Of a DNA stretch of 64,000 nucleotides, positions 4,482 through 59,605 are shown one piece after another. The stretch's first letter is position 1. The number at the start of each line of letters is the position of its first letter. The translations under genes and the position numbers were made by a program. The notes under the pieces were generated by a model. It worked only from the letters and a program-made list of their open reading frames with translations, was not told where the DNA came from and did not search any database. This DNA comes from Amycolatopsis albispora. GTDB lineage: Bacteria > Actinomycetota > Actinomycetes > Mycobacteriales > Pseudonocardiaceae. The stretch covers positions 5,580,001-5,644,000 of the forward strand of contig NZ_CP015163.1 of assembly GCF_003312875.1 (NCBI RefSeq). The letters run 5' to 3'.

Positions 4482-4534
4482 GCAATGAATGTGGCTTTCA
4501 TAGCGTCTGGCGCAATGAAAGCCACATTCATTGC
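4482..4534. repeat. Palindromic repeat, GCAATGA subtype
   Basis: GCAATGAATGTGGCTTTCA is matched by its inverted copy TGAAAGCCACATTCATTGC around a short centre. Core arms are GAATGTGGCTTTC / GAAAGCCACATTC. One of about ten related copies in this window. It lies 29 bases after gluD and could end its transcript. Confidence 0.93.
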
Positions 4535-4590
4535 GTTCAGGGGGCGCCGCGCCGGGCTGAGTTCGGCTTGAGCCGCGGGGCCCCGGCCGG

Positions 4591-4645
4591 TGTCACGAAT
4601 GTGGCTTTCGAGACGTTTCGCGTCCCGAAAGCCACATTCGTGACA
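4591..4645. repeat. Palindromic repeat, TGTCAC subtype
   Basis: TGTCACGAATGTGGCTTTCG at the left and CGAAAGCCACATTCGTGACA at the right form 20-bp perfect arms around AGACGTTTCGCGTCC. It sits 56 bases after the previous copy, so this gap carries two subtypes in tandem upstream of the MFS gene. Confidence 0.93.
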
Positions 4646-4683
4646 TCCCGGCCGCGCTGAGCTGCGGCTTTAGCGGCGCTGCC

Positions 4684-4695
4684 TAGTCTGCGCCG
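4684..4695 (+). promoter_or_regulatory. Leaderless -10 element of the MFS gene
   Basis: TAGTCT (4684-4689) is six bases before the GTG at 4696 and no ribosome site is present. This spacing fits an actinobacterial TANNNT -10 box with transcription starting at the start codon. Confidence 0.5.
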
Positions 4696-5868
4696 GTGGA
4701 CGTGCAGCTGGGAACGCCCCTGAAGTACTGGCTCGCCGTGTTGTCGGTGGCGGTCGGCACCTTCTCGATCGTCACCTCGCAGCTGCTCCCGGTGGGCCTG
4801 GTGCCGCAGATCGCCGCGGAGCTGGGCGTGTCCGAGGGCACGGTCGGGCTGACGCTGACCGTGCCGGGCCTGGTCGCCGCCGTGGCCGCGCCCGCGCTGA
4901 CCGTGGCCGCGAGCGGGCTGGACCGGCGGCTGGTGCTCACCGGGCTCAGCGCGCTGCTGGTCGGCGCGAACCTGGTCAGCGCCATCGCCACCGACTTCAC
5001 CGTGCTGCTGGCCGCGCGCATCCTGGTCGGGCTGAGCGTCGGCGGGTTCTGGGCCATCGCGGGCGGGATCGCCGTGCGGCTGGTGCCGGAGCGGGTGGTC
5101 GGCCGCGCGACCGCGACCATCTTCGCCGGGGTGTCCACGGCGACCGTCGCGGGCGTGCCAGCGGGCAAGCTGCTCGGCGACCTGACCGACTGGCGCACCG
5201 CCTTCGCCGTGGTCGGCGTGGTCGCGCTCGCGGTGCTCGCGGCGCAGCTGGTCCTCCTGCCGCGACTGCCAGCCGGTCGCGCGACGAAGCTCGGCGATCT
5301 GCTTTCGCTGTTCCGGCACCCCGAGATCCGGGTCAGCTTCGTCGCGGTGTTCCTGCTGGTGATCGGGCACTTCAGCGCGTACACCTTCATCACCCCGATC
5401 CTGCGCGAAGTCGGCGGAGTGCCGCCCGCGCTGGCCACCGCGCTGCTGCTGGCCTACGGCGGCGCGGGATTCGCGGGCAACTTCCTCGGCGGCACCGCCG
5501 CCTACCGGAACCCGCGCCGCACGCTGGTCGTGGCGGCGGGCGGGCTCGGGATTTCGCTGCTGCTGTGCGGGATCGCCGGTGGTTCGCTGCCGTTGCTGGT
5601 GGTGTTGCTCCTGGTGTGGGGCGCGGCGTACGGCGCGGTGCCGGTCAGCCTGCAGATCTGGCTCGGCAGCGCGGTCCCGGACCGGCGGGAGGTCGCCGGT
5701 TCGCTGTTCGTCACCGCGTTCCAGGTGTCCATTTCGGTCGGCGCGCTGTCCGGCGGGCTGTGGGTGGATTCCTTCGGGACCGCCGGCGTGCTGCTGTTCG
5801 GCGGCACACTGACCGCGCTCACCGCGGCCGGATTGCTGGTGCTGCGGCGAAAATCAGCCGTGGACTAG
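4696..5868 (+). CDS. MFS transporter, AraJ/PbuE-like exporter
   Basis: A 390-aa major facilitator protein with twelve predicted membrane helices, of the drug/arabinose/purine efflux type. The segment RILVGLSVGGFWAIAGG and the following RATATIFAGVSTATVAGVP resemble the motifs of the AraJ/PbuE group. A short cytoplasmic loop (RLPAGRATKLGDLLSLFR) divides the two halves. The GTG start is chosen from the leaderless -10 box. Its 3' end overlaps the convergent cutC by 15 bases. The substrate cannot be predicted. Confidence 0.88.
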   Translation: MDVQLGTPLKYWLAVLSVAVGTFSIVTSQLLPVGLVPQIAAELGVSEGTVGLTLTVPGLVAAVAAPALTVAASGLDRRLVLTGLSALLVGANLVSAIATDFTVLLAARILVGLSVGGFWAIAGGIAVRLVPERVVGRATATIFAGVSTATVAGVPAGKLLGDLTDWRTAFAVVGVVALAVLAAQLVLLPRLPAGRATKLGDLLSLFRHPEIRVSFVAVFLLVIGHFSAYTFITPILREVGGVPPALATALLLAYGGAGFAGNFLGGTAAYRNPRRTLVVAAGGLGISLLLCGIAGGSLPLLVVLLLVWGAAYGAVPVSLQIWLGSAVPDRREVAGSLFVTAFQVSISVGALSGGLWVDSFGTAGVLLFGGTLTALTAAGLLVLRRKSAVD

Positions 5869-6522
5869 CTCGGCCCAACGGCGCACGGCCGCCGCGTCGA
5901 CCGGCTCCTGCCAGCCCAGCGGCCGCGCCCCGGAGCCGATGTGGAACGCGTGCACCCCGGCCTCGCGCAGCCGCGCCACCTGGTGCGCGCGCAGGCCGCC
6001 GCCCGCCATGAGCACCGGTGGTTCCTCGTGGAGCGCGAGCTGTTCCAGCGCGGGCGCGCCCTCGGTGACGCCGTCGGCGTGCCCGGCGGTGAGGATCGTG
6101 TCGCAGCCGAGCCGAGCCGCCGCCGCGTAGGCCACGCGCACGTCGCGGGCGTGGTCGACCGCGCGGTGGAACGTCCAGTTCGCGCCGTCGAGCTCGCGCA
6201 CCAGCGCGCGGGTGGCGGGCTCGTCGACCCGGCCGTCGGCGGTGAGGAAGCCGAGCACGAACTCGCGGGCGCCGAGCGCCAGCAGTTCGTTGGCGCGGGC
6301 GCGGAGGCCGGGGAGGTCCGCCGCCAGGAAGGAGCCGGACTTGCGCAGCATCACGCGCACCGGCAGATCGGTCGCGGCGAGCACTTCGCGGATCACGGCG
6401 TCGGCCGGGGTGAGCCCGTCCAGCGCCATCTCGGCGACCAGCTCCACCCGATCGGCGCCGCCGAGCTGCGCCTGCTCGGCGTCCCGCCCGTCGAGCACGA
6501 TCACTTCCAGCAACCGGTTCAC
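5854..6522 (-). CDS. cutC: CutC family protein
   Basis: A 222-aa single-domain TIM-barrel protein. Family signatures include LEVIVLDGRDAEQAQLGGAD near the start, the VRVMLRKSG strand and WTFHRAVDHARD. CutC was linked to copper homeostasis in E. coli, but its biochemical role in actinobacteria is not settled. The GTG start (6522) overlaps the stop of the upstream sensor kinase as GTGA, implying translational coupling. The 3' end overlaps the MFS gene by 15 bases on the opposite strand. Confidence 0.9.
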   Translation of the reverse strand: MNRLLEVIVLDGRDAEQAQLGGADRVELVAEMALDGLTPADAVIREVLAATDLPVRVMLRKSGSFLAADLPGLRARANELLALGAREFVLGFLTADGRVDEPATRALVRELDGANWTFHRAVDHARDVRVAYAAAARLGCDTILTAGHADGVTEGAPALEQLALHEEPPVLMAGGGLRAHQVARLREAGVHAFHIGSGARPLGWQEPVDAAAVRRWAELVHG

Positions 6523-9500
6523 TCGTACCCTTTCTCGCGTTGCCGGTCACGCACGTAGCGCCCGCGCTCGACCCCGTTCTGCAGACTGGACATCCTGCCG
6601 CGCACGGCATCGGGGCTCAGCGTCAGGATGGCCTGCTCCGCGCTGGCGCGCGCGTGGCGGGCCGGGTGCGTGGTGGCCTCGTCGTCGCGGAACCAGCGCG
6701 TCAGCACGGCTTCGTAGGCGGGCATGCGCTCGGTCGGCCCGTCGAGACCGGCTTCGTCTTCGAGGTGGACGTCGTCCTCGGTCGGCCAGCTGGGCGGTTC
6801 GAACTCGTGGACCGGCGCCCGGGCAGGCGGCTCCACCGGCCGCCGAGGCTCCGGCGGGAGGCGAGGACCGGGTGGCTCGGGATCGGCCTCGGGCCAGTCC
6901 GGTTCGTAGGACGCGTGGCTCGCGTAGGACTTGTGGGTCTCGTGGGTTGTGTACGGCGCGTGGGTTTCGCGGGGTTCGTAAGGCTCGTGGGACCCGTGAG
7001 TTTCGTAAGGCTCGTGGGACCCGTACGGCTCGTGGGTTTCGCGGGGGCCGTAAGGCTCGCGGGTCTCGTAGGGATCGTGGCGCCCGTGGGTTGCGTAAGG
7101 CTCGTCGGTTTCGTCGACGGACTCGGCTGGCCACTCGGGCTCGGGCTGGTAGGCGTGGCGCTGGTCGGATTCGTACCCGGCCTCGAAACCATACGACCGG
7201 TCGTATTCATTCCGCGGCTCGGTCTCGTAGCGCCCCTCGGTTTCGTAGCCCGGCTCGGCCTCAGAGCGCGGCTCGGCCTCAGAGTGCGGGGCGGTGTCGT
7301 AGCGCGGCTCCGGCTCGTAGCGCGGCTCGGGTTCGTAGCGCGGCTCGGGTTCGTAGCGCGGCTCGGGTTCCTGGTGCGGCTCGGGCTCGTAGCGCGGCTC
7401 GAGGTCTTGGTGTGGCTCCGGCTCGTGGCGTGGCTCGGGTTCGGGCAGCGGCTCGGGAACGTACGACCGGTCGTATTCCGGCTCGTAGGGCACGTCAAGC
7501 GAGGGCTCCGGCGGGGTCACCACGATCTCCGTGGCGGGCAACGCGGGCAGCGGCGCCGGCGCTGGTTCCGGCGGCAGCAGCGAAACCGGCGCCGAAACGG
7601 TGACCAGTTCCGGTGGTACCACCACCGTCGCGGTCATGCCGCCACTGCGCCGGTTGGCCAGCCGCACGCTGATGTTGTGCCGGGTGGACAGTCGCGCCAC
7701 CACGTACAGGCCCATCCGCCGGGACACCTCGACGTCCACCTTGGGCGGTTCGGCCAGCCGCGCGTTCGTCCGCCGGACCTCCGCCTCGGCCATGCCGCTG
7801 CCGCGGTCGACGATGTCGATCTGCCAGCCACCGTCGTCGAGCAGGGTGCTGACCACCGAAACCATGGTGGCGGGCGGCGAATACGCGGTGGCGTTCTCCA
7901 GCAGCTCGGAAATCACGTGCACCAGGTCGCTGACCGCCTCCGCGCGCACGGTCAGCTCCGGCGCCGCGGGCAGTTCGATGCGCTGGTAGTGCTCGACCTC
8001 CGACAGCGCCGCGCCGACGATCTCGTCCGCGCTGACCGGACCCGCCACCTCGCGCGCCGGGTCGGTGCCGGAGAGCACCAGCAGGTTCTCGCTGTTGCGG
8101 CGCATGCGGGTGGCGAGGTGGTCCAGTTCGAACAGCCCGCCGAGGATCTCCGGGTCCTGCTCGTCGGCCTCCATCCGGTCCAGTACCGACAGCTGCCGCT
8201 CGACCAGTTCCTGGCTGCGCCGCGAAAGGTTCACGAACATCGAGTTGACGTTCTCGCGCAGCCGCGCCTGCTCCCCCGCCAGCCGCACGGCCTCACCGTG
8301 CACCGCGTCGAAGGCCCGCGCCACCTGACCCAGCTCTTCCTTGCTGAACACCGGAACCGGCGCGATCCGCGGCTCCGAAGACGAACCGGGGTACGGCGGC
8401 TCCGGATCGGTGAGAATGCCTTCGACGGCCGCGGGCAGCTGGTGCTCGGCGACCTCCAGCGCGCTGCGGCGCAGGATCCGCAGCGAACGCAGCAGCGAGC
8501 GCGTCACGATCACCGCGAGCACCCCGCCGATGAGCACCACGCCGAGCACGATCGCCGAGTCGCGGATCGCCGAAGCCCTGGCGTCGGCGGCGAGCGCTTC
8601 GGTGCGGGACTGGCTGTTCTGCTGCAGCGCGTCCTCGACCTGGCGCACCAGGTTGATCGTGTAGGTCGACGCGATGTCCCACTGGATGGGATCGAGCCCG
8701 GTCAGCGGCTGGTCCGCTTCGGACCGCCGCAGCACCGACTCGACCATGTTGTTGCCGTTGTCGACCACCAGCCCGAGCACCGTGTCGTCGTACATGCGGC
8801 GCTGGTCCGGGGTGGCGAACTGGCGGAAGTCCTCGCGCGCGGCCTCGTATTCGGCTTCCGCGCCGAGCAGCGCGCGCGTGCGGTCCACGTTGAGCGAGCC
8901 CTGCGCGAGCGCGTCGGCGAGCACCGCGCGCTTGACCGACATGGTGTCCTTCACCTTGGCCAGCGCGTTCACCGCCAGTCGCAGCCTGGCCAGTTCCGGA
9001 TCGGTGATCTCGGCCGCGGACTGATCACCGACGGTGAGCGTGCCGGTGATCAGGTCGCTGTAGGAGCGCAGCACCGATTCCGGCGGGAAATCGGAGAACT
9101 CCCCGGCATAGCGCAGCCCGGTCAGCCCGCCCAGCTGATCGCGGAGTTGGCGGAAATCGGCGGCCACGTCCGGCGCCAACCCCGATTCCGCGTCGGCCAG
9201 CGTGCGTTCGAACGCACCGAGTGATTCGTTGACCTTGTCGCGCTGGCCGCGCAACTCCTCGATGCCGGTTTTCCGTCCAGTGGCGACAAAACGGACGGTG
9301 AGATCACGTTCGCGCTGCAGCCGGTGGGTCAGCTCGGCGAGCGTGGTGTCCACCCGCACCCGGGTGGCCGCTTCGGCGAGCCTGCCCGCCTCGCCGAGGT
9401 CGAGCCGGACGCGCAGGCCGACCAGCGCGATCACCGCGACGGTGGGGATCAGCAGCACCGCGAAGAGCTTGGTGCGCAGCCGCCAGTTGCGCAGCCGCCA

Positions 9501-11403: not shown

Positions 11404-11449
11404 CGCCTCTTCGGCTCAGCGGAAGCGGGGGGAACGTATAAAGGAGGGC

Positions 11450-20239: not shown

Positions 20240-20272
20240 GCCCGGGTTGCCCGCGACCGGGGGCTCGGCGAG

Positions 20273-20324
20273 AACACGAATGTGGCTTTGGGGGCGGATT
20301 TCGCCCCGAAAGCCACATTCGTGT
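20273..20324. repeat. Palindromic repeat, AACACG subtype
   Basis: AACACGAATGTGGCTTTG and its partner CGAAAGCCACATTCGTGT flank the centre GGGGCGGATTTCGCCC. Third subtype of the family (AACACG...CGTGTT). It lies 34 bases after the pspC stop. Confidence 0.92.
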
Positions 20325-20452
20325 CCGGAGGGCGGGGGCCACGGGATGGAGGCGAGCAGCGGAGGCCGGAGGCACGAGGGGCGAGCGCGGTGCACTGGGG
20401 CCGCGGGGCTGGCACCGTGGCGAGGGGGCAGCCGCGCGCATCGCCCGGCGGA

Positions 20453-20507
20453 TGTCACGAAAGCCACATTCGAGACGCCAAACGTCTCGAAAGCCACATT
20501 CGTGACA
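20453..20507. repeat. Palindromic repeat, TGTCAC subtype with flipped left core
   Basis: Outer ends TGTCAC and GTGACA and the centre are intact, but the left core reads GAAAGCCACATTC instead of GAATGTGGCTTTC. Both cores are therefore direct repeats. The centre GAGACGCCAAACGTCTC is the reverse complement of the centre of the copy at 39907. Confidence 0.92.
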
Positions 20508-20717
20508 CCGGCCCGAGGCCGCGACGCGGGCCGAAGCCTGGGGCCGGGCGCGAGTGCCGGGGGCGCCGCGGCACGGGGCCGCGGGCACAGGGGCCCGGCG
20601 GCCGCGGGGCGCCGCCGGGCGAGCGCGGGCTCACCGGGCCCGCCGTGCAATGAGGTGATCTCAGCAAGGGGAGGGTGACACGCCCATTCCGGTCGTAGTG
20701 GGCGGTGCTGGCATGAG

Positions 20718-20778
20718 GCGCGGGGTCCCCGGTAGGGACGTTCTCACCACAAGACCTATCCCGGTGAGGACCCCGCGC
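20718..20778 (+). promoter_or_regulatory. Hairpin covering the transposase ribosome-binding site
   Basis: GCGCGGGGTCC (20718-20728) pairs perfectly with GGACCCCGCGC (20768-20778). The right arm ends one base before the transposase ATG and its left edge overlaps the likely ribosome site GAGGA. In a read-through transcript it would hide this site and limit transposase translation (inferred). Confidence 0.6.
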
Positions 20779-20779
20779 A

Positions 20780-21607
20780 ATGCCCCATCCTGCCACCCGC
20801 GATGTCTCCCGCGCGCTGACCTGGTACGTGGCCCGGCTCCTGGCCGCGCACCGGCACACCCTGGGCACCCGCCGCAACAGCAGGGCCCTGACCTGCTACC
20901 GGCAGGCCACCCTCGGGCTGTACTGGTTCCGCCACACCCGCACCGACATCACCGCACTAGGCCACAAGCACGGCGTCTCCCGCGCCACGGCCTACCGCTA
21001 CATCGACGAAGTCATCACCGTGCTCGCCACCCAAGCCCCCGGCATCCACGACGCCCTCGACCACGCCCGCGCCCGCAACCTGCCGTATCTGATGCTGGAC
21101 GGGAAAGTGTTCCCCACCGACCGCCTCGCCGAGAAAACCCTCAGCGTCAAAGGCGAACCCATCGACCTGTGGTACGCGGGCAAAGCCCGCGCCTTCGGCG
21201 GCAACATCCAACTCCTCACCGACCCCGCCGGCTTCCCCCTCTGGGTCTCCGACGTCGAACCCGGCTCGGTCCACGACATGACCATCGCCTCCGACCAGGC
21301 CCTGCCCGCCCTCTACACCGCAGCCGCACACGGCATGCCCACCCTCGCCGACTCCGGCTACGACCGCGCCGGAATCGGCGTGCACACCCCCATCAAACAC
21401 CCCAGCAAAAACCACCACCTCGACCCGGACAACCGCACCCGCAACGCCCTGCTCCGCGGACTGCGCGCCCAGGCCGAACGCGGCTTCGCCCTGCTCACCG
21501 GACGCTGGCGCACCCTGCACCACACCACCAAAAGCCCCCGCGCACTCGGCGCCATCGTCCAAGCCGCACTCGCCCTCACCCACTACGAACACAGCAAGAA
21601 CATATGA
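20780..21607 (+). CDS. IS5-family-like transposase (DDE_Tnp_4 type)
   Basis: A 275-aa transposase, apparently intact. The N-terminal half has a helix-turn-helix (GHKHGVSRATAYRYIDEV). The catalytic domain shows the DDE triad: first Asp in YLMLDGKVFPTD, second in TLADSGYDRAG, Glu in LRAQAERGFALLTGRW. FGGNIQLLTDPAGFPLWVSD is typical of the HARBI1-like class. It fills nearly the whole element. Codons are strongly biased to final C, as in the host. Confidence 0.92.
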   Translation: MPHPATRDVSRALTWYVARLLAAHRHTLGTRRNSRALTCYRQATLGLYWFRHTRTDITALGHKHGVSRATAYRYIDEVITVLATQAPGIHDALDHARARNLPYLMLDGKVFPTDRLAEKTLSVKGEPIDLWYAGKARAFGGNIQLLTDPAGFPLWVSDVEPGSVHDMTIASDQALPALYTAAAHGMPTLADSGYDRAGIGVHTPIKHPSKNHHLDPDNRTRNALLRGLRAQAERGFALLTGRWRTLHHTTKSPRALGAIVQAALALTHYEHSKNI

Positions 21608-21708
21608 ACCTTGCTGAGATCACTTCAATGAATGTGGCTTTCATTGCGCCACACGCTATGAAAGCCACATTCATTGCACGAGCCACCCACCCGCCCCCGG
21701 ATAGCGAA

Positions 21709-32324: not shown

Positions 32325-32379
32325 TGTCACGAATGTGGCTTTCGAGACGTTTCGCGTCCCGAAAGCCACATTCGTGACA
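32325..32379. repeat. Palindromic repeat, TGTCAC subtype
   Basis: TGTCACGAATGTGGCTTTCG ... CGAAAGCCACATTCGTGACA. Its centre AGACGTTTCGCGTCC is identical to that of the copy at 4591. It lies 18 bases after the AAA ATPase stop. Confidence 0.93.
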
Positions 32380-32478
32380 CCTACCCGCCAGCCACGCCGC
32401 CTGAACCCACGCAGCACGCCGCCACGCGGCGCCGGCGCGACGGTCCATTGAGGATGGTGGTGGGCGACGGGCGGGCAT

Positions 32479-32500
32479 CCCGAAAGCCACATTCGTGACA
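32479..32500. repeat. Half copy of the palindromic repeat
   Basis: CCCGAAAGCCACATTCGTGACA (right arm and end) stands alone, with no left arm in the preceding 100 bases other than the complete copy at 32325. Confidence 0.85.
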
Positions 32501-39906: not shown

Positions 39907-39961
39907 TGTCACGAATGTGGCTTTCGAGACGTTTGGCGTCTCGAAAGCCACATTCGTGACA
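39907..39961. repeat. Palindromic repeat, TGTCAC subtype
   Basis: TGTCACGAATGTGGCTTTCG with a perfect inverted partner around GAGACGTTTGGCGTCTC. The arms extend into the centre (GAGACG/CGTCTC), giving about 26 paired bases. It begins 17 bases after thiD. Confidence 0.94.
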
Positions 39962-40054
39962 CTCCGGAGGCCCACCTGCAAAACCGCCACCCGGCAACAC
40001 AAGGTGACCACCCGCCCAACCAGGCCCCCCCATCCCGGTCCACAGCCAAAAACA

Positions 40055-40111
40055 CGGCGGGGGTTCCGTTGTCAAGGCATCTTTCCCGCCTTGACAACGG
40101 AACCCCCGCCG
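40055..40111. terminator. Long perfect hairpin, probable bidirectional terminator
   Basis: CGGCGGGGGTTCCGTTGTCAAGG minus no bases pairs perfectly over 23 positions (40055-40077 with 40089-40111) around CATCTTTCCCG. Left arm begins CGGCGGGGGTTCC, right arm ends GGAACCCCCGCCG. It lies between convergent thiD and the MarR relic, and its sequence is unrelated to the GTGGCTTT repeats. Confidence 0.75.
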
Positions 40112-40114
40112 TAG

Positions 40115-43844: not shown

Positions 43845-44932
43845 CAGACACTCTCCTTCTCACGAAGCCGGGCCGGGTCGGCGGCGGCCACCCCGGGCGG
43901 CGGCGGGGTGCCGTCGAGCGCGGCGAGCACCGCGTCGGCGGTGATCGGCGCCATCAGCAGGCCGTTGCGGTGGTGCCCGGTCGCGGCGAACACCCCGTCG
44001 GGCAGCCTGCCGATGAAGGGCAGGTTGTCCACACTGGCCGCGCGCAGCCCGGCGGCGGTTTCGGCCAGTTCGTACTCGGCGATCGCCGGGAACACCCGTT
44101 CGGCGCCTTCGAGCAGCTCACGCACCCCGCGTGCGGTGACCACCTCGTCGAACCCGGCCTCGTACTGGGTCGCGCCGAGCACCAGCTCGCCGCCCGCGCG
44201 CGGCACGAGATAGATGGGACGGCCCTCGGCGTACGCGCGGACGGTGTGCGCGGGCGGGCCGAGCGTGGTGCGACGGGCACGCAGGCGCAGGATCTCGCCC
44301 TTGAGCGGGCGGACGGCGTGCTCCAGCGCCGGGTGCAGGCGGGCGCTCCAGGCGCCGGCGGCCAGCACCACGAGATCGCCGCGCAGCGTCCGGCCGGTGG
44401 TCCGGACGGTCTCCGGGCCCAGCTCGACGACCTCTTCGCGGATCGGGTCGAGCGGTTTCCGGAGGGCGTCGAGCAGGGCGCGGTTGTCCACGGACAGGTC
44501 GCCCGGCACGGCGAGGCCCCCGCGGAGGGAGCCCGCGAGACCGGGTTCTCGCCGCTTCAATTGTCGACTTGTCAGCTTTTCCGCCTCGCGGCCCGCGCTG
44601 TGCAGATAGGCCGCGAGCTGGTCGAGAACGCCCAGGTCGGCACTGTCCAGCGCGGCGACCAGCGTGCCTTTCTCGGACAGTCCGCAGCCACCGAGGTCCT
44701 CGGCGAACTGCGGCCAGCGCCTCAGCGACTCCTCACCGAGGGTGAGCACTTCCTCTTCACCGGGCCACGCCTCGGTGACCGGGGCGAGCATGCCGCCCGC
44801 CACCCAGGACGCACCACGCGCCGGTCGCGGGTCGACGAGGGTGACCTCGTGGCCGCGGGCCTGGGCGCGCCAGGCGACGGCGAGGCCGACGACACCGCCA
44901 CCAACCACGGTGACCTGGTGCTTTCGCTTCAT
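43844..44932 (-). CDS. thiO: Glycine oxidase ThiO
   Basis: A 362-aa FAD enzyme converting glycine to iminoglycine (dehydroglycine) for thiazole formation. FAD-binding motif [20 protein letters not shown], then [48 protein letters not shown], and C-terminal [20 protein letters not shown] with [17 protein letters not shown]. First gene after a TPP riboswitch on the same strand. Confidence 0.95.
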
Positions 44933-44938
44933 GGGATC

Positions 44939-45024
44939 ACGCTCCCTGCGCCGGCATGACCCGGATCAGGTTCCACGGTCGGAGCGGCAGCTCCCTCTCA
45001 GCCCGTGCCTCGGGCTCCCGTGCG
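44939..45024 (-). promoter_or_regulatory. TPP riboswitch of thiO-thiS-thiG
   Basis: Reading the minus strand: GGGAGCCCGAGGCACGGG, CTGAGAGGGAGC, CCGTGGAACCTGATCCGGGT, CATGCCGGCGCAGGGAGCGTG, a complete thi-box. It ends about seven bases before the thiO ATG, so the terminal GGGAG doubles as the ribosome site. Confidence 0.95.
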
Positions 45025-45050
45025 GACGTTTCCACCGTAACACCGACGAG

Positions 45051-45063: not shown

Positions 45064-45729
45064 ATGCCAGGGCTGGATGGTGACGAGATCAGGAAGCGCC
45101 TCGACGAGGCACGGCTGTACCTGTGCGTGGACGCGCGGTCGGCGCGCGGGGACCTCGCGGAGTTCCTCGACGCGGCGCTGGCCGGTGGGGTGGACATCGT
45201 GCAGCTGCGTGACAAGACCAGCGGCGCGCCACTGGAGGCGAAACAGGAACTGGCGGCGCTGGAGGTGTTCGCCGCCGCATGCGCGAAGCACGGTGCGCTG
45301 CTGTCGGTGAACGACCGGGCGGACGTCGCGCTGGCGGCCGGCGCCGACGTGCTGCACCTCGGCCAGGACGACCTCCCGGTGCCGGTCGCGCGGCGCGTGC
45401 TGGGTGACGACGTGGTGATCGGCCGGTCCACGCACTCGGGCGCGCAGGCCCGCGCGGCCGCCGCCGAGCCGGGCGTCGACTACTTCTGCACCGGGCCCTG
45501 CTGGCCGACCCCCACCAAGCCCGGCCGGGACGCGCCGGGGCTGGACCTGGTCCGGGAAACCGCCGCGCTCGGCACTGGGCGCCCGTGGTTCGCCATCGGC
45601 GGCATCGATCTCGAGCGCCTGCCGGAAGTCCTGGAGGCGGGAGCCACGCGAATCGTGGTCGTCCGCGCCATCACGGACGCCGAAGACCCGGAATCGGCGG
45701 CGCGTGCCCTGAAATCCGCGCTGGTTTAA
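45064..45729 (+). CDS. thiE: Thiamine-phosphate synthase ThiE
   Basis: A 221-aa TIM-barrel enzyme joining HMP-PP and thiazole phosphate. Motifs: [115 protein letters not shown] and [20 protein letters not shown]. Divergent from the thiOSG operon. A palindromic repeat follows its stop. Confidence 0.95.
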
Positions 45730-45740
45730 CGGAGACCGCC

Positions 45741-45795
45741 GAACACGAATGTGGCTTTCGGGGCGCTTTTCGCCCCGAAAGCCACATTCGTGTTC
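45741..45795. repeat. Palindromic repeat, AACACG subtype
   Basis: GAACACGAATGTGGCTTTCG and its perfect inverse around GGGCGCTTTTCGCCC; near-perfect pairing over about 25 bases. It fills the gap between the 3' ends of convergent thiE and the membrane-protein gene, 12 bases from each. Confidence 0.94.
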
Positions 45796-45807
45796 TTCAC
45801 CGCGTTT

Positions 45808-46761
45808 TTATTGCGCCGCGGCGGGGGCGCTTTGCTGCGGGGCGCTCGGTTCCGGGTTTTCGGTGGTGGTGGTGACCGATGGCTCCGGGGTGCTGCTGGT
45901 CGGCTGCTCCGACGGCTCGGCCGGTGCCGTGGTGGTGGGCGCGCCGGATTCGCTCGCGGGCGCCTTCGACGGGGTGCTCGCCGGGGCCTCGCGGGTTTCC
46001 GAGGCGGGGGCGTGCTCGGCGGGCTTCTCGTGCTCGCCGCCGCCACCGCCGACGATGTGGCCGATCGTGCTCCGGCCGTCGCCGGAGATGCTGCCGCCGG
46101 TGGCGAACTCGAACCCGGTGATCAGCAGGATCGCCAGCACAAAGCCGACCAGGCTGGTCCCGATGACCAACGGCCACCGCAGCTTGCGCAGGCGGCTGAC
46201 CGGCTGCTCCGCCGATTCCGAAGCCACCCCCGAGGCCGCCCCGGATGACTCAGCGGCCCCTCCCGAAGCCGCTCCAGAGCCAGAGTCCGAAGCCGAATCC
46301 ACCCCCGAAGCCGCTCCAGAGCCCGAAGCCGCCCCAGAAGCCGCCCCAGAAGCCGCGCCGGAGCCCGAAGCCGCCCCAGAAGCCGATCCCGGAGCCGCTC
46401 CAGAAGCCGAAGCCGATTCCGGCGCCGAACCCCGGGCGTCGGACTCCTCGTCACCCGACTCGGCCGCCGGCGACCCGATCCGTTCGGCCATCGGCGCCGT
46501 CGCCCCCGCCCGGCCCGACGCCAGCACCTGGGTGCGCGTGGCCAGCACCTTGGCCTTCAGCGCCGCTTCCTTCGTGCGGTCCAGCGAGCGCAGGTACAGC
46601 TCGCCGCCCACCGTGGTGATCACGCTCGCCAATCCCGCGCCGAGCACCGTGCCCGCGACGCCGAGCGTCGAACCGAGCAGCGCCGCGGTCACCGCGGCCA
46701 GTGCGGCCGCGGCCACCTGAATCGGTCTGACCCCTGACTTCTTTTCCTTCTCCTCTGACAT
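45808..46761 (-). CDS. Two-TM membrane protein with Ala/Ser/Gly-repeat loop
   Basis: A 317-aa protein, not recognised as a named family. N-terminal hydrophobic region (QVAAAALAAVTAALLGSTLG, VAGTVLGAGLASVITTVGGE), a charged segment, then about 70 residues of SGAASGSGAASGAASG-type low complexity. A second membrane helix (PLVIGTSLVGFVLAILLITG) precedes an extracellular Pro/Thr/Ser-rich tail (STPSKAPASES, TTTAPAEPSEQP). The start MSEEKEKKSGVRPIQ follows GGAGAAGG. Probably a wall-spanning protein; function unknown. Confidence 0.75.
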   Translation of the reverse strand: MSEEKEKKSGVRPIQVAAAALAAVTAALLGSTLGVAGTVLGAGLASVITTVGGELYLRSLDRTKEAALKAKVLATRTQVLASGRAGATAPMAERIGSPAAESGDEESDARGSAPESASASGAAPGSASGAASGSGAASGAASGAASGSGAASGVDSASDSGSGAASGGAAESSGAASGVASESAEQPVSRLRKLRWPLVIGTSLVGFVLAILLITGFEFATGGSISGDGRSTIGHIVGGGGGEHEKPAEHAPASETREAPASTPSKAPASESGAPTTTAPAEPSEQPTSSTPEPSVTTTTENPEPSAPQQSAPAAAQ

Positions 46762-54319: not shown

Positions 54320-54727
54320 GTGTCCACGTGGCAGCAGCCGGCGGATGTCGGCAAGTGGCTGAACGAGGTGCCGTGGGTGATCACGGACTCGCCGCAGGGG
54401 GCGGCGGGTCCGCCGTCCGGCGGGTTCGCGATGAGCCGCAGCGAGATGATCAACGTGCTGACCGAGGCCAAGCAGCTCCGGGTGCTGGTCGACAAGCAGA
54501 TCATGGGCACCCAGCCGCTCAGCCGGATCACGCCGCCGGGGCGTGATCCGGCGAGCGAGCGGTACGTGGCCGCGGCGAACGCCACCGGCTTCAACTACCT
54601 CAACCACCTGCGGCTGCAGTCGAAGTACCTGGGTGACCTGATCGGAAAACTGAACAAGGCACTGGGCAACGTCGAGGAGACCGACGCGAACGCGGCCGCC
54701 GCGGCACGGAAGGCCGGCGAGCACTGA
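54320..54727 (+). CDS. Small helical protein at head of type VII-like cluster
   Basis: A 135-aa protein of unrecognised family. Start STWQQPADVGKWLNEVPWVI; the rest is largely helical (SEMINVLTEAKQLRVLVDKQ, NYLNHLRLQSKYLGDLIGKL). Its size and position before a WxG/PPE-like gene suggest a PE-like partner, but no YxxxD/E signal is present, so this is only positional inference. GGGGGAGG precedes the GTG. The next gene starts in its stop codon (TGATG). Confidence 0.7.
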   Translation: MSTWQQPADVGKWLNEVPWVITDSPQGAAGPPSGGFAMSRSEMINVLTEAKQLRVLVDKQIMGTQPLSRITPPGRDPASERYVAAANATGFNYLNHLRLQSKYLGDLIGKLNKALGNVEETDANAAAAARKAGEH

Positions 54728-55986
54728 TGGGCTGGTTCCTCGGGGAAGCGGGCGGGTCGTGGGCCTGGCTCGACGAGTACCTGAAGAAGCTGGAAGAGGA
54801 CGGGGCCTTCATCCCGCCGGGCGATCTGGTGCAGATGATCCGCGACGGCGCGGGCCCGGCCAGCCTCCAGGAAGCCCGGCAGCTCGGCCTCAACCAGCAC
54901 GACGAGCAGCGTGAGCTGGAGGACGGCGCGCGGCGGCTGGTGGCGAAGCTGGAGTCGGCGTGGAACGGCGCCGCCTCGGACGCCGCGCGCGCCAACATCC
55001 AGCCGCTGGCCACCGTCGCCGAGACGGCCGCGAAGACGCTGAAGGTCAACTCGGAGATCGTGCAGAACCAGGTGCACAGCTTCGAGGCGCTCAAGGCCAA
55101 CCTGCACCAGGTGTCGAACGACCCGCCGGAGAAGGGGTTCTGGGACAGCGCGACCCCGTGGGACACCGACACCGAGGACCAGATCAACCAGCGCAACCAG
55201 CAGGTCTCCGAGAACAGCGAGAAGTACTCGGTGTACGTGCAGACCAGTGACGAGAACAAGGCGTCGATGGTCGCCGACTACGGCCACGTGCCGGGGTACA
55301 GCGGGAACGACTTCGAGGTCGAACCGCGCAAACCGGGCGATCCCGGTGACGACAAGGGCGATCAGGACGGGAAGTACCGGATCCCCAAGAAGGACGATTC
55401 GACCAGCGTCAGCGGATTCACCGGGCATCCGACGACCACTCCCCCGCCGAACATCCCGCCGCCCGTGCCGCCGCCGCACCACCCGCCGGTGCCGCCGCCG
55501 ACCCCGGGCATCCCGATCGGCACCACGCCGTCCGGCTACCAGCCGCCGAGGCTGAACAAGCCGTCGTGGCCGGGCATTCCGGGCCTCGGGCCCGGCAATC
55601 CCGGTGGCTTCGGCCCGCGTGGTGGCGGTGCCGGTGGTGACTTCGGCGCGGGTGCCTTCGGCCCTGGCGGCGGCATTCCGTCGGCCGGTTCCGCCGGTGG
55701 TTCCGGTTCCGGTGGTGGCGCGGGTGCGCCGGGTGCGGGCGCGGGGGTCGGCGCGGGCGGCCTGCCCGGTGCCGGTGGTCCCGCCGCGCCTGGTGGCGCG
55801 CAGGGCGGACAGGGCGCGGGTGCCCGTGGCGGCATGGGCTCCGGTGGTGGCGGTGGTGGCGGAGGCGGCCGTGGTCAGGGCGGCGAGGACGCCGAGCACC
55901 GCCGCGCCTCCTACCTGGAGGAAGCCGATCCCGACGCGATCTTCGGCACCGACGAGCGGACGGCCCCGCCGGTGATCGGCCAGTGA
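54727..55986 (+). CDS. WxG/PPE-like putative type VII secretion substrate
   Basis: A 419-aa protein. The N-terminal 180 residues are helical with a WxG turn (KLESAWNGAASDAARANI, W79-G81) and a YxxxD-type signal (YSGND, 191-195) after the helices, the layout of PPE/WXG100 substrates. Then a Pro-rich segment (TTTPPPNIPPPVPPPHHPP), about 130 residues of Gly-rich sequence and a conserved-looking end (RRASYLEEADPDAIFG, TAPPVIGQ). No signal peptide. The overlap with the EspG gene supports type VII export. Confidence 0.75.
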   Translation: MGWFLGEAGGSWAWLDEYLKKLEEDGAFIPPGDLVQMIRDGAGPASLQEARQLGLNQHDEQRELEDGARRLVAKLESAWNGAASDAARANIQPLATVAETAAKTLKVNSEIVQNQVHSFEALKANLHQVSNDPPEKGFWDSATPWDTDTEDQINQRNQQVSENSEKYSVYVQTSDENKASMVADYGHVPGYSGNDFEVEPRKPGDPGDDKGDQDGKYRIPKKDDSTSVSGFTGHPTTTPPPNIPPPVPPPHHPPVPPPTPGIPIGTTPSGYQPPRLNKPSWPGIPGLGPGNPGGFGPRGGGAGGDFGAGAFGPGGGIPSAGSAGGSGSGGGAGAPGAGAGVGAGGLPGAGGPAAPGGAQGGQGAGARGGMGSGGGGGGGGGRGQGGEDAEHRRASYLEEADPDAIFGTDERTAPPVIGQ

Positions 55987-56699
55987 CCGTGCGACTGCCC
56001 CGGCCGATCGTGCTGCCGCTGGCGGCGTTCCGGCAGGCGTGGAAGTGGCAGCGGCTGGGCCCGCTGCACCCGGTGATCGGCATCGAGGAGCGGTGGGCCG
56101 ACTCGGACACCCAGCGCGACCTGGAGAACCGCATCGCCGACGGGCTCAACCGCGCGGGACTGGCCCGCAACGGCGTGCCGAGCAAGCACTTCAAGGAGGT
56201 GCTGGCCGTGCTCGCCGAGGCCGACCGCGAGTTCTACGGCTGGGTCGGCCTGGTCGACTCCGGCAACACCGCCGGGGTGCTGGTGGCCACCGACGAGTTC
56301 GGCAGCGCGGTGCGCGTGTTCCGCGACGACACGCACCTGCGGCTGGACCACGCCGAGTTCGACGCCCCCGAGCGCTGCCTGGTCGACTCGCTGCCGCGGG
56401 TGCCGCCCGCCAGGGTGCCGGAGCTGCGGGTGCCGAAGTCCCGGCAGGACGCGGTGACCGAGGTGACCGGCTCGCGGCGCACCGGGGTGCACAAGCTGCA
56501 CGCCGCCCGGCCCGACCGCGGCGGCTCCCGGCGGCGCAGTTCGCCGCTGACCGTGCTCGACCTCGCCGGCCGCGGCCGGGTGATGACGTTCGTCACCGAG
56601 GAGAAGGGCGCCGAACCGCAGGTCAGCTGCGTTCCCGGCACGCCGGAGGCGATGGTGCGGCAGTTGCGCGCGGCGGATTCCGCCCTCCGGCCGTACTGA
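55983..56699 (+). CDS. EspG-family type VII secretion chaperone
   Basis: A 238-aa protein of the ESX secretion-associated EspG family: VLPLAAFRQAWKWQRLGPLH near the start, GWVGLVDSGNTAGVLVATDE, then a basic variable region and RGRVMTFVTEEKGAEPQVSC with the final TPEAMVRQLRAADSALRPY. EspG binds PPE-type substrates in the cytosol and delivers them to the ESX ATPase. The GTG start overlaps the substrate gene stop by four bases. No secretion machine gene is in the window. Confidence 0.82.
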   Translation: MTVRLPRPIVLPLAAFRQAWKWQRLGPLHPVIGIEERWADSDTQRDLENRIADGLNRAGLARNGVPSKHFKEVLAVLAEADREFYGWVGLVDSGNTAGVLVATDEFGSAVRVFRDDTHLRLDHAEFDAPERCLVDSLPRVPPARVPELRVPKSRQDAVTEVTGSRRTGVHKLHAARPDRGGSRRRSSPLTVLDLAGRGRVMTFVTEEKGAEPQVSCVPGTPEAMVRQLRAADSALRPY

Positions 56700-56727
56700 G
56701 GATTAGCACCTGGAGGAACCCCCAAGT

Positions 56728-56739
56728 TATGGTCAGAAC
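56728..56739 (+). promoter_or_regulatory. Leaderless -10 element of the OmpA-like gene
   Basis: TATGGT (56728-56733) lies six bases before the ATG at 56740, suggesting an own promoter separate from the espG operon. Confidence 0.5.
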
Positions 56740-57264
56740 ATGTCCGGCCGCCTGCTGCTGATCCCGTTGGCGCTGGTGGTGACCGCCGCGATGGCGCTGG
56801 TCATCACCTGGACCGACGGTGCCCGGCTGGAGGCCGAGATGACGCAGCGGACGGCCGCGCCCGCCGCGGCGCCCCCGGTCCAGCCCGCGATCGCCGCGGA
56901 GGGCGGCGACGCGAAGCAGGCGCTCCAGACCGAGATCGACCGGCTGCTCGAAGCCGAGCCGATCACCTTCACCCCGGACACCGCCGAGTTGACCGGGGAA
57001 AGCGAAGGCACCGTCGGCCGGATCCGCGAGGTGCTGGCCAAGGCGCCCGCCGACGCCACCTTCGAGGTGGGCGGGCACGTCGCGAAGACACCGGGTGACG
57101 AGGAGGCGGGCCTGGAGCTGTCACGGCAGCGCGCGGAGGCGGTGGCGAAGCTGATCGCCGGGGAGGGCGTGCCCGCCGAGCGGATCACCGCGAAGGGGTA
57201 CGGGGACACGCGACCCAAGGCGGGCGGTGGGGACGACCGCCGGGTCGAGATCACGGTCAAGTAG
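56740..57264 (+). CDS. OmpA-like C-terminal domain protein
   Basis: A 174-aa protein with an N-terminal membrane helix (RLLLIPLALVVTAAMALVIT), a short linker, and an OmpA domain (75-174): ITFTPDTAELTGESEGTVGR, DATFEVGGHVAKTP, LSRQRAEAVAKLIAGEGVPA, ITAKGYGDTRPKAGGGDDRR. The domain binds peptidoglycan and would face the wall from the outer side of the membrane. It resembles the single-domain ArfA-type proteins of mycobacteria. The next gene starts 12 bases on. Confidence 0.9.
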   Translation: MSGRLLLIPLALVVTAAMALVITWTDGARLEAEMTQRTAAPAAAPPVQPAIAAEGGDAKQALQTEIDRLLEAEPITFTPDTAELTGESEGTVGRIREVLAKAPADATFEVGGHVAKTPGDEEAGLELSRQRAEAVAKLIAGEGVPAERITAKGYGDTRPKAGGGDDRRVEITVK

Positions 57265-57276
57265 GGGGAGTCGACG

Positions 57277-57867
57277 ATGCTGTGGTTGTTCGGCCAGATC
57301 TGGGTCTGGTTGCTGGTCGCCTTCGGGCTGGGCGTGCTGCTGACCTGGGTGGTGCTGTCGATGGTGCACCGCAAGGAGCTGGCCAGGGCCGAAGAAGCCG
57401 CGGCGATGCCGTCGAGACCGTTCTACGAGGATCCTCCCGCCCCTCCCGCGTTTCCCGCGCAGGACGAGCCGGTCTATCCGCAGGACGACTACGACGACGG
57501 CTTCACCCACGACGACCGTCCCCGCAACGGCTACGCCCACGCCGAGCCCGGCGCCTACCTCGACGACGACGGCTACCCGCGCGAGGACCACGACGCGCGT
57601 TATCCGGAGGACCCGTACCCCGAGTCGTACCCGGGCAACCTGCACCCGGTCGCCGCCTATCCCGAGGACGGCTACCCGCGCGACGACTACGACGAAGAGC
57701 CGCGCGGCGGTCAGCTGCCCGCGGACGACGACGGCCATCCCGCCTATCCAGGCGAAGAACCGCGGCCCACCGAGGGCCAGATCGACTGGCCGGTGGAGAA
57801 CGCCCAACCGGCCTGGCCGACCGACGAGGACTGGCCGCCTGTCCAGCCCCGGCAGCGCAACTGGTAA
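57277..57867 (+). CDS. Membrane-anchored acidic low-complexity protein
   Basis: A 196-aa protein: one N-terminal helix (LFGQIWVWLLVAFGLGVLLT, continuing WVVLSMV), a short basic stretch, then an Asp/Tyr/Pro-rich tail with repeated YPEDGYPRDDYDE-like units. It ends QIDWPVENAQPAWPTDEDWP. Cotranscribed with the OmpA-like gene (GGGGGAG upstream). Such tails are common in actinobacterial OmpA-adjacent genes; no function is known. Confidence 0.75.
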   Translation: MLWLFGQIWVWLLVAFGLGVLLTWVVLSMVHRKELARAEEAAAMPSRPFYEDPPAPPAFPAQDEPVYPQDDYDDGFTHDDRPRNGYAHAEPGAYLDDDGYPREDHDARYPEDPYPESYPGNLHPVAAYPEDGYPRDDYDEEPRGGQLPADDDGHPAYPGEEPRPTEGQIDWPVENAQPAWPTDEDWPPVQPRQRNW

Positions 57868-57894
57868 TTTCGGCTGTCCATTCGAGGAGGGTCG

Positions 57895-58401
57895 ATGCCG
57901 CTGCCGCACTGGACCGCGGACGGGGTGCTCCCACCCGGCGCGCATCCGGCGGATCTGGCCGATATCTACGAGCGCCTGGTCTGCGACGCGCCGTACCAGA
58001 ACGAACGCGAGATCCTGTTCGGCGCGCTGAGCAGCTATCTCGGCGTGGTGTGCCGGATCATCCCGTCCGGGCGCGCCTGGATCGACGGCGGGCTCGCGCT
58101 GTGGTCGGAGGAGCCGCCGGGCACCGTCGACGTGGTGCTCATCCCGGACGAGTGGGGCAGCCTCAAGAAGCTCGACGGCGCCGCGCGTGCCGCGCTCTAC
58201 GGCATGGTCACGCTGCGTGGCGCCATCATCGGCCAGCCCGCGATGTACCTGGACCAGGTGCAGCCGGTGCACGGCCTGCTCGACGGCTACCTGTGCGTGC
58301 CGGGCCACGAAGAGGTGTGGGCGCAGACCTGGTCGTCGGTGCGCGGGCCGTACGGTCCGGTCGAGGGGCTGGTCAAGGGGTACGCGGAGGTGCGGTGGTG
58401 A
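57895..58401 (+). CDS. DUF6932-like (nucleotidyltransferase-type?) protein
   Basis: A 168-aa soluble protein. LPPGAHPADLADIYERLVCD, the central YLGVVCRIIPSGRAWIDGGL and the strand TVDVVLIPDEW resemble the DUF6932 layout (LPPG, then WxDGS, then DxD strand), which looks like a degenerate nucleotidyltransferase fold. Here the DxD position has only one Asp. Assignment is by pattern memory and uncertain. Start ATG has GAGGAGGG upstream. Its stop overlaps the next start (GTGA). Confidence 0.6.
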   Translation: MPLPHWTADGVLPPGAHPADLADIYERLVCDAPYQNEREILFGALSSYLGVVCRIIPSGRAWIDGGLALWSEEPPGTVDVVLIPDEWGSLKKLDGAARAALYGMVTLRGAIIGQPAMYLDQVQPVHGLLDGYLCVPGHEEVWAQTWSSVRGPYGPVEGLVKGYAEVRW

Positions 58402-59273
58402 ACAAGTTCCGCGAACTGGCCGACGACATTCCCGGCGGTACCTGGCTGGACGACCTGGCGCGCGCGTCGGCGATGGCGGCACACGCGAAGTTCGAGCGGA
58501 CCTCGCGCTCACCGCTGCTGCGGGTGTCGGTGCTCGGCTCGTCGCAGCAGGACGCGTACACCTTCTCCGACATCGGCCGCGCCCTGCAGGACGCGGCGGC
58601 GAAGATCGGCCGGATCATCCGCGACCCGCAGAGCGAGATCACCTACGTGCAGCCCGCCGACCGCGAGAAGGCGCCGCTGATCCAGCGCGGGCAGGCGGGC
58701 AACACGCTGTTCTTCGGCTTCCCCGAGCCGGAACCGGCCGACGCGCTGATCCACGACGGCATCGAGACGCTGTCCGAGCGCGCGGTCAAGGAACTGTGCG
58801 ACTTCCTGCCGGCCAACGGTTCCGACGACGGCGCGCTGGACGCGGTGCTGCTGCAGCGGGACACCGTGCGGAACGCGGTCAGCGACATCGTGGCGGCGGT
58901 CAGCAAGAACGCCGGGATCGGGTTGCAGCTGACCACCACGGCCGGTGAGGACGTGCTGCGCAGCATGACCACCGAGCAGGCGCGGGTGCTGCGGAGCAGC
59001 TTGCGCGAGTCGCGCGAGGAGGTCGGGTACGAGACGGTGTCGGGCAGGCTCGACGGCGTGCGCACCCGGCGGCGGATCTTCTACCTGGAACGCGAATCGG
59101 GCGGCACGGTGCAGGGCGCGGTGGCGCCGGACCTGCTGGACGAGATCAAGCTGAACCTGGATCGGCCGGTGACCGCGCGGCTGCGCGTGGTCCGCACCAC
59201 CACGATCGACGGCCGCCGGGGCCGACCGGTCTACGAACTGCTCGAGATCACCCCGGAAACCAGCCTCTTCTGA
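58398..59273 (+). CDS. Uncharacterised protein coupled to the DUF6932-like gene
   Basis: A 291-aa soluble protein, no family recognised. Features: LLRVSVLGSSQQDAYTFSDI near the N-terminus, a helical middle (IIRDPQSEITYVQPADREKA), GNTLFFGFPEPEPADALIHD, a long helix (RDTVRNAVSDIVAAVSKNAG), and a C-terminal beta-rich part with SGRLDGVRTRRRIFYLERES and LRVVRTTTIDGRRGRPVYEL. The last part resembles domains that bind small molecules or report stress, but no name can be given. GTG start overlaps the upstream stop by four bases. Both genes face repeat-bearing DNA with a gene relic. Confidence 0.7.
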   Translation: MNKFRELADDIPGGTWLDDLARASAMAAHAKFERTSRSPLLRVSVLGSSQQDAYTFSDIGRALQDAAAKIGRIIRDPQSEITYVQPADREKAPLIQRGQAGNTLFFGFPEPEPADALIHDGIETLSERAVKELCDFLPANGSDDGALDAVLLQRDTVRNAVSDIVAAVSKNAGIGLQLTTTAGEDVLRSMTTEQARVLRSSLRESREEVGYETVSGRLDGVRTRRRIFYLERESGGTVQGAVAPDLLDEIKLNLDRPVTARLRVVRTTTIDGRRGRPVYELLEITPETSLF

Positions 59274-59303
59274 CGCGGACCCTCCGCTCGCGCGCCGCGG
59301 CCA

Positions 59304-59339
59304 GAACACGAATGGGCTTATGGGGCGGATTTCGCCCCG
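59304..59339. repeat. Left arm and centre of an AACACG-subtype palindromic repeat
   Basis: GAACACGAATGGGCTTATGG then GGCGGATTTCGCCCCG. The arm carries small changes from GAATGTGGCTTTG and the expected right arm does not follow; a gene fragment follows instead. Confidence 0.85.
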
Positions 59340-59550
59340 CGCCGAGGCGGCGTCGAAGGTCGCCCGCAGGGTGTGCGAAAGCAGCGGCAGCGCGTCCTGT
59401 TCGTGCGCGGCGCCCGCCTCGCCGGGCGTGCCAGGGGTTACCTCGCGGATGAGCAGTTCGACCAGCCCGCCGTCGACCTCCATCCCGGCGCCGCGCGCGG
59501 GCTCGACGATCGCCGCCCGCAGTTCGGGTTCGGTCATCGGGCCCACCACA
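59340..59550 (-). pseudogene. Fragment of an nSTAND1-type NTPase / WD40-protein gene
   Basis: One minus-strand frame encodes GPMTEPELRAAIVEPARGAG, MEVDGGLVELLIREVTPGTP, then ALPLLSHTLRATFDAAS. This is the region just after the NTPase core of nSTAND1 proteins (typically MTxxELRxAIxxPA...LxLLxxE...LPLLSHALxxTW). About 70 residues remain of a protein normally over 1000 aa. Both ends stop abruptly at repeat arms. Confidence 0.75.
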
Positions 59551-59551
59551 A

Positions 59552-59605
59552 CCCGAAAGCCACATTCGTGTCGCGGCTGGCGCCCCGAAAGCCACATTCG
59601 TGTTC
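59552..59605. repeat. Two right arms of the palindromic repeat in tandem
   Basis: CCCGAAAGCCACATTCGTGT (59552-59571) and GCCCCGAAAGCCACATTCGT continuing to GTTC (59582-59605). The second would complete the left arm at 59304 if the intervening DNA were removed. Confidence 0.85.

Follow-up and report, generated by a model that had tools for sequence, protein, structure and literature searches.

A 55-bp palindrome, dispersed through intergenic DNA and used as a target by at least two unrelated families of insertion sequence (IS), was analysed from a stretch of 64,000 nucleotides of Amycolatopsis albispora (the window; contig NZ_CP015163.1, positions 5,580,001 to 5,644,000; source genome G000). 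We conclude that the palindromes probably form a non-autonomous dispersed family of the kind known as repetitive extragenic palindromes (REPs), whose units spread in trans and whose centre is used by IS as a landing site. They appear to be a repeat that spreads and at the same time gives IS a place to land without harm. A first-pass annotation of the window, made from its letters, had described a dispersed palindrome family with a shared core and had proposed a mobile palindrome reused as terminator; the role of the palindromes as IS targets was overlooked there.

Core, flanks and placement of the palindromes

The family is defined by a 13-mer core, GAATGTGGCTTTC. With up to two mismatches the core occurs 19 times in the window against 0.43 expected, and none of 100 shuffles reached 19. 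In the whole genome (9.12 Mb) the exact core was found 369 + 396 = 765 times and the reversed control 0 times, and 321 core pairs at 30-bp spacing were found in G000 (control 0). A typical element of 55 bp consists of an outer flank of 6, the core of 13, an inner flank of 6 and a loop of 5, and then the mirror image; that is, two inverted 25-bp quasi-palindromic units flank a 5-nt loop, which is free. Since each arm is itself a quasi-palindrome (GTTGC-GAAAG-CCA-CTTTC-GCAAC in A. azurea and relatives), the pair can form either a single long hairpin or two short hairpins. Some elements are 57 bp long, some are solo units and some are direct repeats. Exact or near-exact core patterns were used, so that decayed copies are undercounted. 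The copies in the window are as follows (window positions; no strand is assigned unless given).

4481 to 4535: palindrome, TGCAAT subtype with inner ATAGCG/CGCAAT; core matches, RNA fold -39.3 kcal/mol
4591 to 4645: palindrome, TGTCAC subtype; core matches, inverted pair
20272 to 20326: palindrome, GAACAC subtype, one core mismatch (GAATGTGGCTTTG); core matches, inverted pair
20453 to 20507: palindrome, TGTCAC subtype, left core flipped (direct-repeat cores); fold -24.5 kcal/mol, core unpaired
20646 to 20653: flank of the outer arm, TGCAATGA, to the left of the IS5-like insertion, with CAATGA again at 21626-21631; from sequence
20654 to 21623, plus strand: IS5-like element that interrupts the outer arm of the copy at 21624 and has inverted ends GTGATCTCAGCAAGG; DDE_Tnp_4, and transpos_IS5_4 at 90.3 bits, below the cut-off of 140
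20780 to 21607, plus strand: gene for the 275-aa transposase of the IS5-like element; gene call and domain models
21624 to 21678: palindrome, TTCAAT/ATTGCA subtype; core matches, inverted pair
32325 to 32379: palindrome, TGTCAC subtype, between convergent genes; core matches and gene calls
32476 to 32500: solo unit (half element); core match
39907 to 39961: palindrome, TGTCAC subtype; core matches, fold -47.2 kcal/mol, z -12.8
45741 to 45795: palindrome, GAACAC subtype, between convergent genes; core matches, fold -48.9 kcal/mol
59304 to 59340: decayed left half of a GAACAC-type copy; from sequence only
59549 to 59605: two direct-repeat units 32 bp apart; fold -12.0 kcal/mol, z 0.26, no hairpin

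It can be seen that three intact copies fold as RNA at -39.3 to -48.9 kcal/mol, and that the copies at 20453 and 59549 are without the full hairpin. The copies at 4481, 32325, 39907 and 45741 are inverted pairs like those so marked. The IS5-like insertion (about 970 bp) splits one palindrome copy, and position 20645, previously taken for a copy of its own, is really the outer-arm flank (the CAATGA repeat) on the far side of this insertion beside the 21624 copy.

Three main flank subtypes were seen again in G000 on the one core, as had been described for the window: TGTCAC/GAGACG, GGACAC or GAACAC/GGGGCG, and GCAAT or GCTAT/ATAGCG. Constancy of the core was measured by a search with the flanks only, by which the core is not pre-selected (1.26 Mb of G000). 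In the 35 TGTCAC elements so obtained the exact 13-mer, in either orientation, filled 68 of 70 core slots; one of the other two slots held a single mismatch and one was broken by an IS. One arm was flipped in 4 of the 35, each with two exact cores, and also in the mismatch-bearing element, and 17 loop variants occurred among the 35. The GGACAC flanks gave 30 matches, of which five without core were discounted as chance. Among the 25 kept, 15 had two exact inverted cores, 7 had one core altered at an edge base, to GAATGTGGCTTTG or the mirror of it, 1 had direct cores and 2 were split by IS. The earlier claim that the outer ends co-vary was borne out: in 54 distinct G000 copies flank pairing was 0.938 against 0.635 shuffled at the outer and 0.91 against 0.663 at the inner flanks, values that 0 of 2000 shuffles reached, and in copies of all species (n=164) it was 0.884 against 0.467 and 0.794 against 0.466, respectively.

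The genomic context was analysed in three stretches covering 1.26 of the 9.12 Mb, with genes called by a codon-usage caller made for this analysis (first stretch 85% coding). A locus was a cluster of cores with at most one mismatch, and a copy split by an IS counted as two loci, one per half. Among the 74 sampled loci, 1 was in a called gene, 42 were between convergent, 30 between tandem and 1 between divergent genes, a placement biased relative to intergenic base pairs (chi-square p 1e-14). A stop codon was within 60 bp at 56 of the 72 loci with a neighbouring stop. Further copies, location outside genes (73 of 74 loci), non-random placement and proximity to stop codons are thus found well beyond the window. 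The statement that most copies lie between convergent genes holds in the larger sample (42 of 73) but not in the window, where the 10 loci classified from the gene calls are five convergent and five tandem. The preference for convergent and tandem over divergent gaps (42/30/1 of 73) is that of REPs, and the family is a REP in the broad sense of a high-copy, short, extragenic palindrome.

Insertion sequences at the palindrome centres

Two IS families use the centre of the palindrome. The first is an element of 1353 bp with a Pfam rve domain, for which NCBIfam transpos_IS481 was the best of 4 models (207.9 bits); because this score is below the curated cut-off of 224, the element is named IS481-like. 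All 5 copies in G000 (E <= 1e-100) are at a palindrome centre, with 15-bp duplications that comprise four different 15-mers, each matching the local palindrome. At the same threshold the G000 element was found in none of the 13 other carriers searched. The second is an IS1380 element (transpos_IS1380 289.4 bits, above the cut-off of 180), of which all 4 copies in G000 (E <= 1e-60) are in the 5-nt loop; its duplication is the loop itself, exact in 3 and with 4 of 5 letters in 1. In addition, the unit at 1114161 has an IS30 element (281.5 bits) at its centre.

One IS1380 copy (L356, G000 5698608-5700281) has unlike loop repeats, CATAA / CAGAA, and the copy at L358 has CATAA on both sides. The mismatch could be due to exchange between two IS copies, or to mutation.

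Homologs of the IS481-like element (57-73% identity) were found in at least ten further genomes of 386 family genomes (E <= 1e-90). This search scored 4 candidates per genome, so that the counts are lower bounds and 4 of the 5 G000 copies are listed; 20 of 23 loci were scored, L346, L347 and L352 being dropped because their ends were not found. Beyond G000, 12 of the 15 scored copies are in palindrome centres. The exceptions are L338 and L355, which are not in palindrome centres, and L341, which ends at a contig end and has one flank. Of all 17 palindrome matches, 13 have the centre of the duplication at the centre of the palindrome; in the other 4, whose IS ends are uncertain, the offset is 1-2 bp. 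The target palindromes scored 14.5-26, and in 16 of 17 cases none of 300 random places at the same locus reached the score (L321, 1 of 300). Types among the 12 copies beyond G000 include GAGGTCAGGTCAAGCCGAC in G228, CCCAGGGAGGGATGTCAAGC in G236, GATGGCCACC in G058, GTGAAGGCCACCTTCAC in G262 and GTCGTGAGTGGTTAGC in G033/G215. As the palindromes of G058 and G262 have the same GCCAC centre as the present family, they may be distant members of it; those of G228, G236 and G033/G215 are without this centre.

Distribution and competing explanations

The exact core was found in 14 of 80 genomes of the genus (g1, which judging by shared flank types is probably Amycolatopsis), with 765 copies in G000, 317 in G057, 286 in G026, 35 in G053 and 1-5 in each of the other ten. 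G000, G057, G026 and G053 are the closest group: among the matches listed for a 3.9-kb query they have 84-92% identity versus 71-80% for the rest, and G053 has 89-92% nucleotide identity to G000. Core pairs number 321 in G000 versus 7 in its near relative G053, and 0 in 51 of the 80 genus genomes. A degenerate pair pattern was present in 50 of the 390 genomes of the family, including 29 of the genus, with a maximum of 384 in genus g30 (control 0 throughout); 21 genomes, 19 of g1 and 2 of g30, have at least 40 pairs. In the copies read from g30, taken as Pseudonocardia, the two cores are in inverted order and the 30-bp spacing is unchanged; other species have the same architecture with different flanks. 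A class-wide search for the pair pattern gave 2 of 394 genomes, G000 and one with 2 pairs. Carriers belong almost exclusively to one Actinomycetes family, Pseudonocardiaceae, judged from named records among the matches listed (80 of at least 120 stretches).

With the 39907-39961 copy as query (E <= 0.01) no match was found in plasmid and phage collections, nor was the pair pattern found in viral contigs; carriage by plasmids or phages was rejected on these grounds.

Among 291 gaps common to the four genomes, the element was present in 19 in G000, 0 in G053, 10 in G057 and 7 in G026, and 11 of the 291 were occupied in at least two species, mostly by different subtypes. At gaps orthologous to occupied ones, the element was absent from 21 of 21 in G053, 11 of 19 in G057 and 13 of 19 in G026; 15, 7 and 7 of these, respectively, had no stem of at least 9, and 8 of the 21 in G053 were only 1-55 bp long. 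This absence indicates that the palindrome is dispensable at many of those junctions.

If the palindromes are a REP-like family as proposed, their units would spread in trans through an enzyme that recognises the core and that is not a Y1 transposase detectable by Pfam. Gene ends would be the sites where copies do least harm, and the 25-bp hairpin, being identical on both strands, may cap or end the transcripts of both neighbours. The centre would probably be the tip of an extruded hairpin or cruciform, or the symmetry point between two bound units, and IS transposases may read it, by its shape, as a safe landing site. A far-reaching version, which we offer only tentatively, is a new class of mobile palindrome with a non-Y1 enzyme reading a flippable 13-mer core, a lasting partnership with IS481-like and IS1380 elements, and transposases that recognise symmetry or cruciform shape and not sequence. 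If true, genomes carry renewable landing pads where insertion is harmless, and transposons are thereby kept away from genes.

Several observations weigh against the main reading of a spreading REP-like family. Most G057 elements (8 of 10, p 9e-10) are in gaps that are also occupied in G000, mostly by other subtypes, and the same holds for 6 of 7 G026 elements (p 1e-7); shared gaps fit hot gaps, and also fit old sites with turnover of the stem in place, which would not be transposition. In alignments the insertion boundaries are unclean, as the gaps differ by filler besides the 55 bp. A target duplication of the palindrome's own was absent in 46 of 47 cases (chance expectation 44.6), and in 1.26 Mb of G000 the unpaired arms revealed no autonomous partner with the same ends. 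The GGACAC elements have a less constant core, 7 of 25 being altered at an edge base of one core. In G057 alone (n=13) flank pairing was not above shuffles, with inner flanks at 0.756 versus 0.734 and outer flanks at 0.885 versus 0.755, one shuffle being at 0.897. The first-pass annotation had reported no matching transposase in the window; the gene of the IS5-like transposase there had been overlooked.

One alternative is that the palindromes are ordinary bidirectional terminators, non-mobile and kept at gene ends by selection. This would be in keeping with the strong hairpins (-47.2 kcal/mol, z -12.8), the strand symmetry, the bias towards stop codons and convergent genes and the covarying stems; moreover, other hairpins are at similar positions, some of them kept at the syntenic place, and element-free orthologous gaps hold another stem of at least 9 in 4 of 11 cases in G057 and 6 of 13 in G026. 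However, selection for a hairpin leaves the exact 13-mer in hundreds of copies unexplained, copies with a flipped arm or direct repeats persist although they are incapable of the full hairpin, and the orthologous gaps of G053 are often very short (8 of 21 of 1-55 bp) or without such a stem (15 of 21). Nor is there a T-run after the hairpin: at 94 ends T accounts for 16% of the first eight bases outside the element and 41% of the first one, for which reason the classical T-tailed terminator was rejected. Of the features of an intrinsic terminator, intact copies have the G+C-rich hairpin and lack the T-run. Reuse as a terminator, as proposed earlier, is plausible, but it seems unlikely that the family consists of terminators and nothing else. 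An array of protein-binding sites for chromosome organisation or regulation, in which the 25-bp unit is a dimer operator with fixed core and 30-bp pairing, would explain why the core is nearly constant while loops drift, why its orientation is free (4 of 35 elements with flipped arms and exact cores; inverted order in Pseudonocardia) and why core and spacing are kept across genera. That G053 has 7 pairs against 321 in G000, and 51 of the 80 genomes of the genus none, is unlike an essential site system, and the near-absence from coding DNA also argues against an array, which we consider improbable.

Mobilisation by known partners was also considered. A true REP of the GTAG superfamily, mobilised by a REP-associated tyrosine transposase (RAYT), or a CGTC-tagged REP is suggested by the dimeric inverted units, the placement at gene ends and the IS targeting, which match the REP descriptions in the sections of PMC3733652 and PMC1525189 used here, and by CGTC at the inner unit ends of the TGTCAC subtype. 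In contrast, the check for a RAYT-type transposase that the first-pass annotation had suggested was negative: PF01797 (Y1/RAYT transposase) was found at E <= 0.001 in 0 of 80 genus genomes, including the source genome, a result that applies to proteins detectable by the Pfam model, with more diverged Y1 proteins outside its scope (the control was positive in 5 of 14 named genomes). There is no common GTAG at the unit ends inspected, and CGTC is confined to one subtype of G000, the others carrying CGCCCC, CGCTAT, CTTCAT etc. RAYT mobilisation was rejected because PF01797 is absent from the genus genomes, and this explanation as a whole seems very improbable. The palindromes might instead be miniature inverted-repeat transposable elements (MITEs) of IS481-like or IS1380 elements, i.e. 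internally deleted IS whose terminal repeats are the arms, as the symmetric position of the arms around an IS in 9 G000 copies might suggest. But the IS ends are unrelated to the arms (TGTCGTG../..TGAACA; CCTGGATCC../..GGATCCAGG), the loop that is duplicated is internal to the arms and follows the variant of the particular palindrome, and homologs sit in palindromes of other sequence. A MITE of a resident IS was rejected because IS ends and target duplications contradict it, and we give this explanation hardly any credence. From the earlier label "MITE/REP-like", the REP part is retained, as a dispersed intergenic family expanded in some species, and the MITE part is not supported, since 46 of 47 copies have no target duplication.

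Related palindromes and other features of the window

The sections of PMC3733652, PMC1525189 and PMC2817692 used here describe REPs and bacterial interspersed mosaic elements (BIMEs) as high-copy extragenic palindromes, with inverted dimers that fold singly or as a large hairpin, placement at the ends of convergent and tandem genes, complementary stem changes and use as IS targets. The present family is like these in its extragenic high copy number, dimer form, gene-end placement, stem covariation and IS targeting; it is unlike them in that no PF01797 gene was found in the genus, there is no general GTAG/CGTC tag, and the unit is a quasi-palindrome whose nearly constant 13-nt core is flippable. 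Short, non-autonomous and with inverted arms, it resembles MITEs, from which it differs in having no target duplication of its own and no parent transposon with these ends in 1.26 Mb. DNA uptake sequences, as in Neisseria and Haemophilus, occur at high density, with many single copies and also within genes. Their pairs share with the present family a fixed short core and inverted arrangement at gene ends, but high density and coding copies are missing here; as called genes hold just 1 of the 74 sampled loci, a DNA uptake signal was rejected. Uptake sequence pairs that serve as terminators are described in the section of PMC2267715 used here.

According to the main text of PMC1525189, REP-targeting IS (IS1397, IS621, ISPsy8, ISPa11, ISPpu9/10, ISRm22) have extragenic palindromes as their specific targets, in some cases for every copy of the IS in a genome, and belong to the IS3, IS110, IS4, IS256 and IS5 families; the words IS481 and IS1380 are absent from that text. 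The IS481-like group is unlike these known elements in that its targets in different genera are the centres of palindromes that differ in sequence. The 55-bp family is REP-like, with no Y1 partner found in the genus, and with IS481-like and IS1380 targeting outside the families named in that main text. The main text of the REP catalogue PMC3733652, checked for these names only, does not mention actinobacteria, Streptomyces, Saccharopolyspora, Amycolatopsis or Pseudonocardia. In open-licence literature the 13-mer strings gave no relevant match (one was on Taxus) and related cores gave none, and titles and abstract starts there held no account of these palindromes or of palindrome targeting by IS481-like or IS1380 elements. 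A REP-like system in an Actinomycetes genus without a found Y1 enzyme of GTAG REPs makes the spread of palindromes a testable question. Likewise, an IS481-like lineage that hits the centres of palindromes of unrelated sequence across genera allows an assay of whether a DDE transposase can choose its target by DNA shape (cruciform or hairpin).

Further two-arm palindrome families of similar size occur in the four genomes, in other genus genomes and in named carriers. They include an GAGTGGGGCATTAC family in G026/G057, a family ACGGCG..TGTCAAGG..CCTTGACA..CGCCGT in all four genomes, and others such as GTGAAGGCC.., GAACGGTCCGTTC and GAATGACTCATTC. Some palindromes have another core but outer or inner flank modules in common with the present family (e.g. 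TGTCAT + GAAAGGGTCGTTC in L206), as though cores and flanks could each be exchanged. This suggests that the present family is one member of a wider class of palindromes, which were seen and not systematically counted. Palindromes that share flanks and have other cores are at L206 5149-5203, L214 1830-2028 and L254 4263.

Other features of the window were also recorded. A second palindrome family is represented at 40054-40112 (ACGGCGGGGGTTCCGTTGTCAAGGCATCTTTCCCGCCTTGACAACGGAACCCCCGCCGT; fold -54.3 kcal/mol). At other loci of the four genomes its mid-stem sequence differs and pairing is kept, and three genomes have it, with compensatory changes, at the orthologous gap 5504792. The hairpin at 62817-62867 (CAACACCGCCCTGCACCATCAG..) has a syntenic counterpart in G053, G057 and G026; it has the look of a conserved hairpin of the ordinary kind and differs in this from the family with turnover. 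A thiamine pyrophosphate (TPP) riboswitch (Rfam RF00059, 71.1 bits) is at 44926-45031 on the minus strand, near a thiamine monophosphate synthase gene at 45064-45729. At a junction at about 45731-46571, where a palindrome is located, G053, G057 and G026 have about 5.4-6.5 kb between aligned blocks, and the same interval in G000 is 0.1 kb (versus G057) to 0.8 kb (versus G053 and G026).

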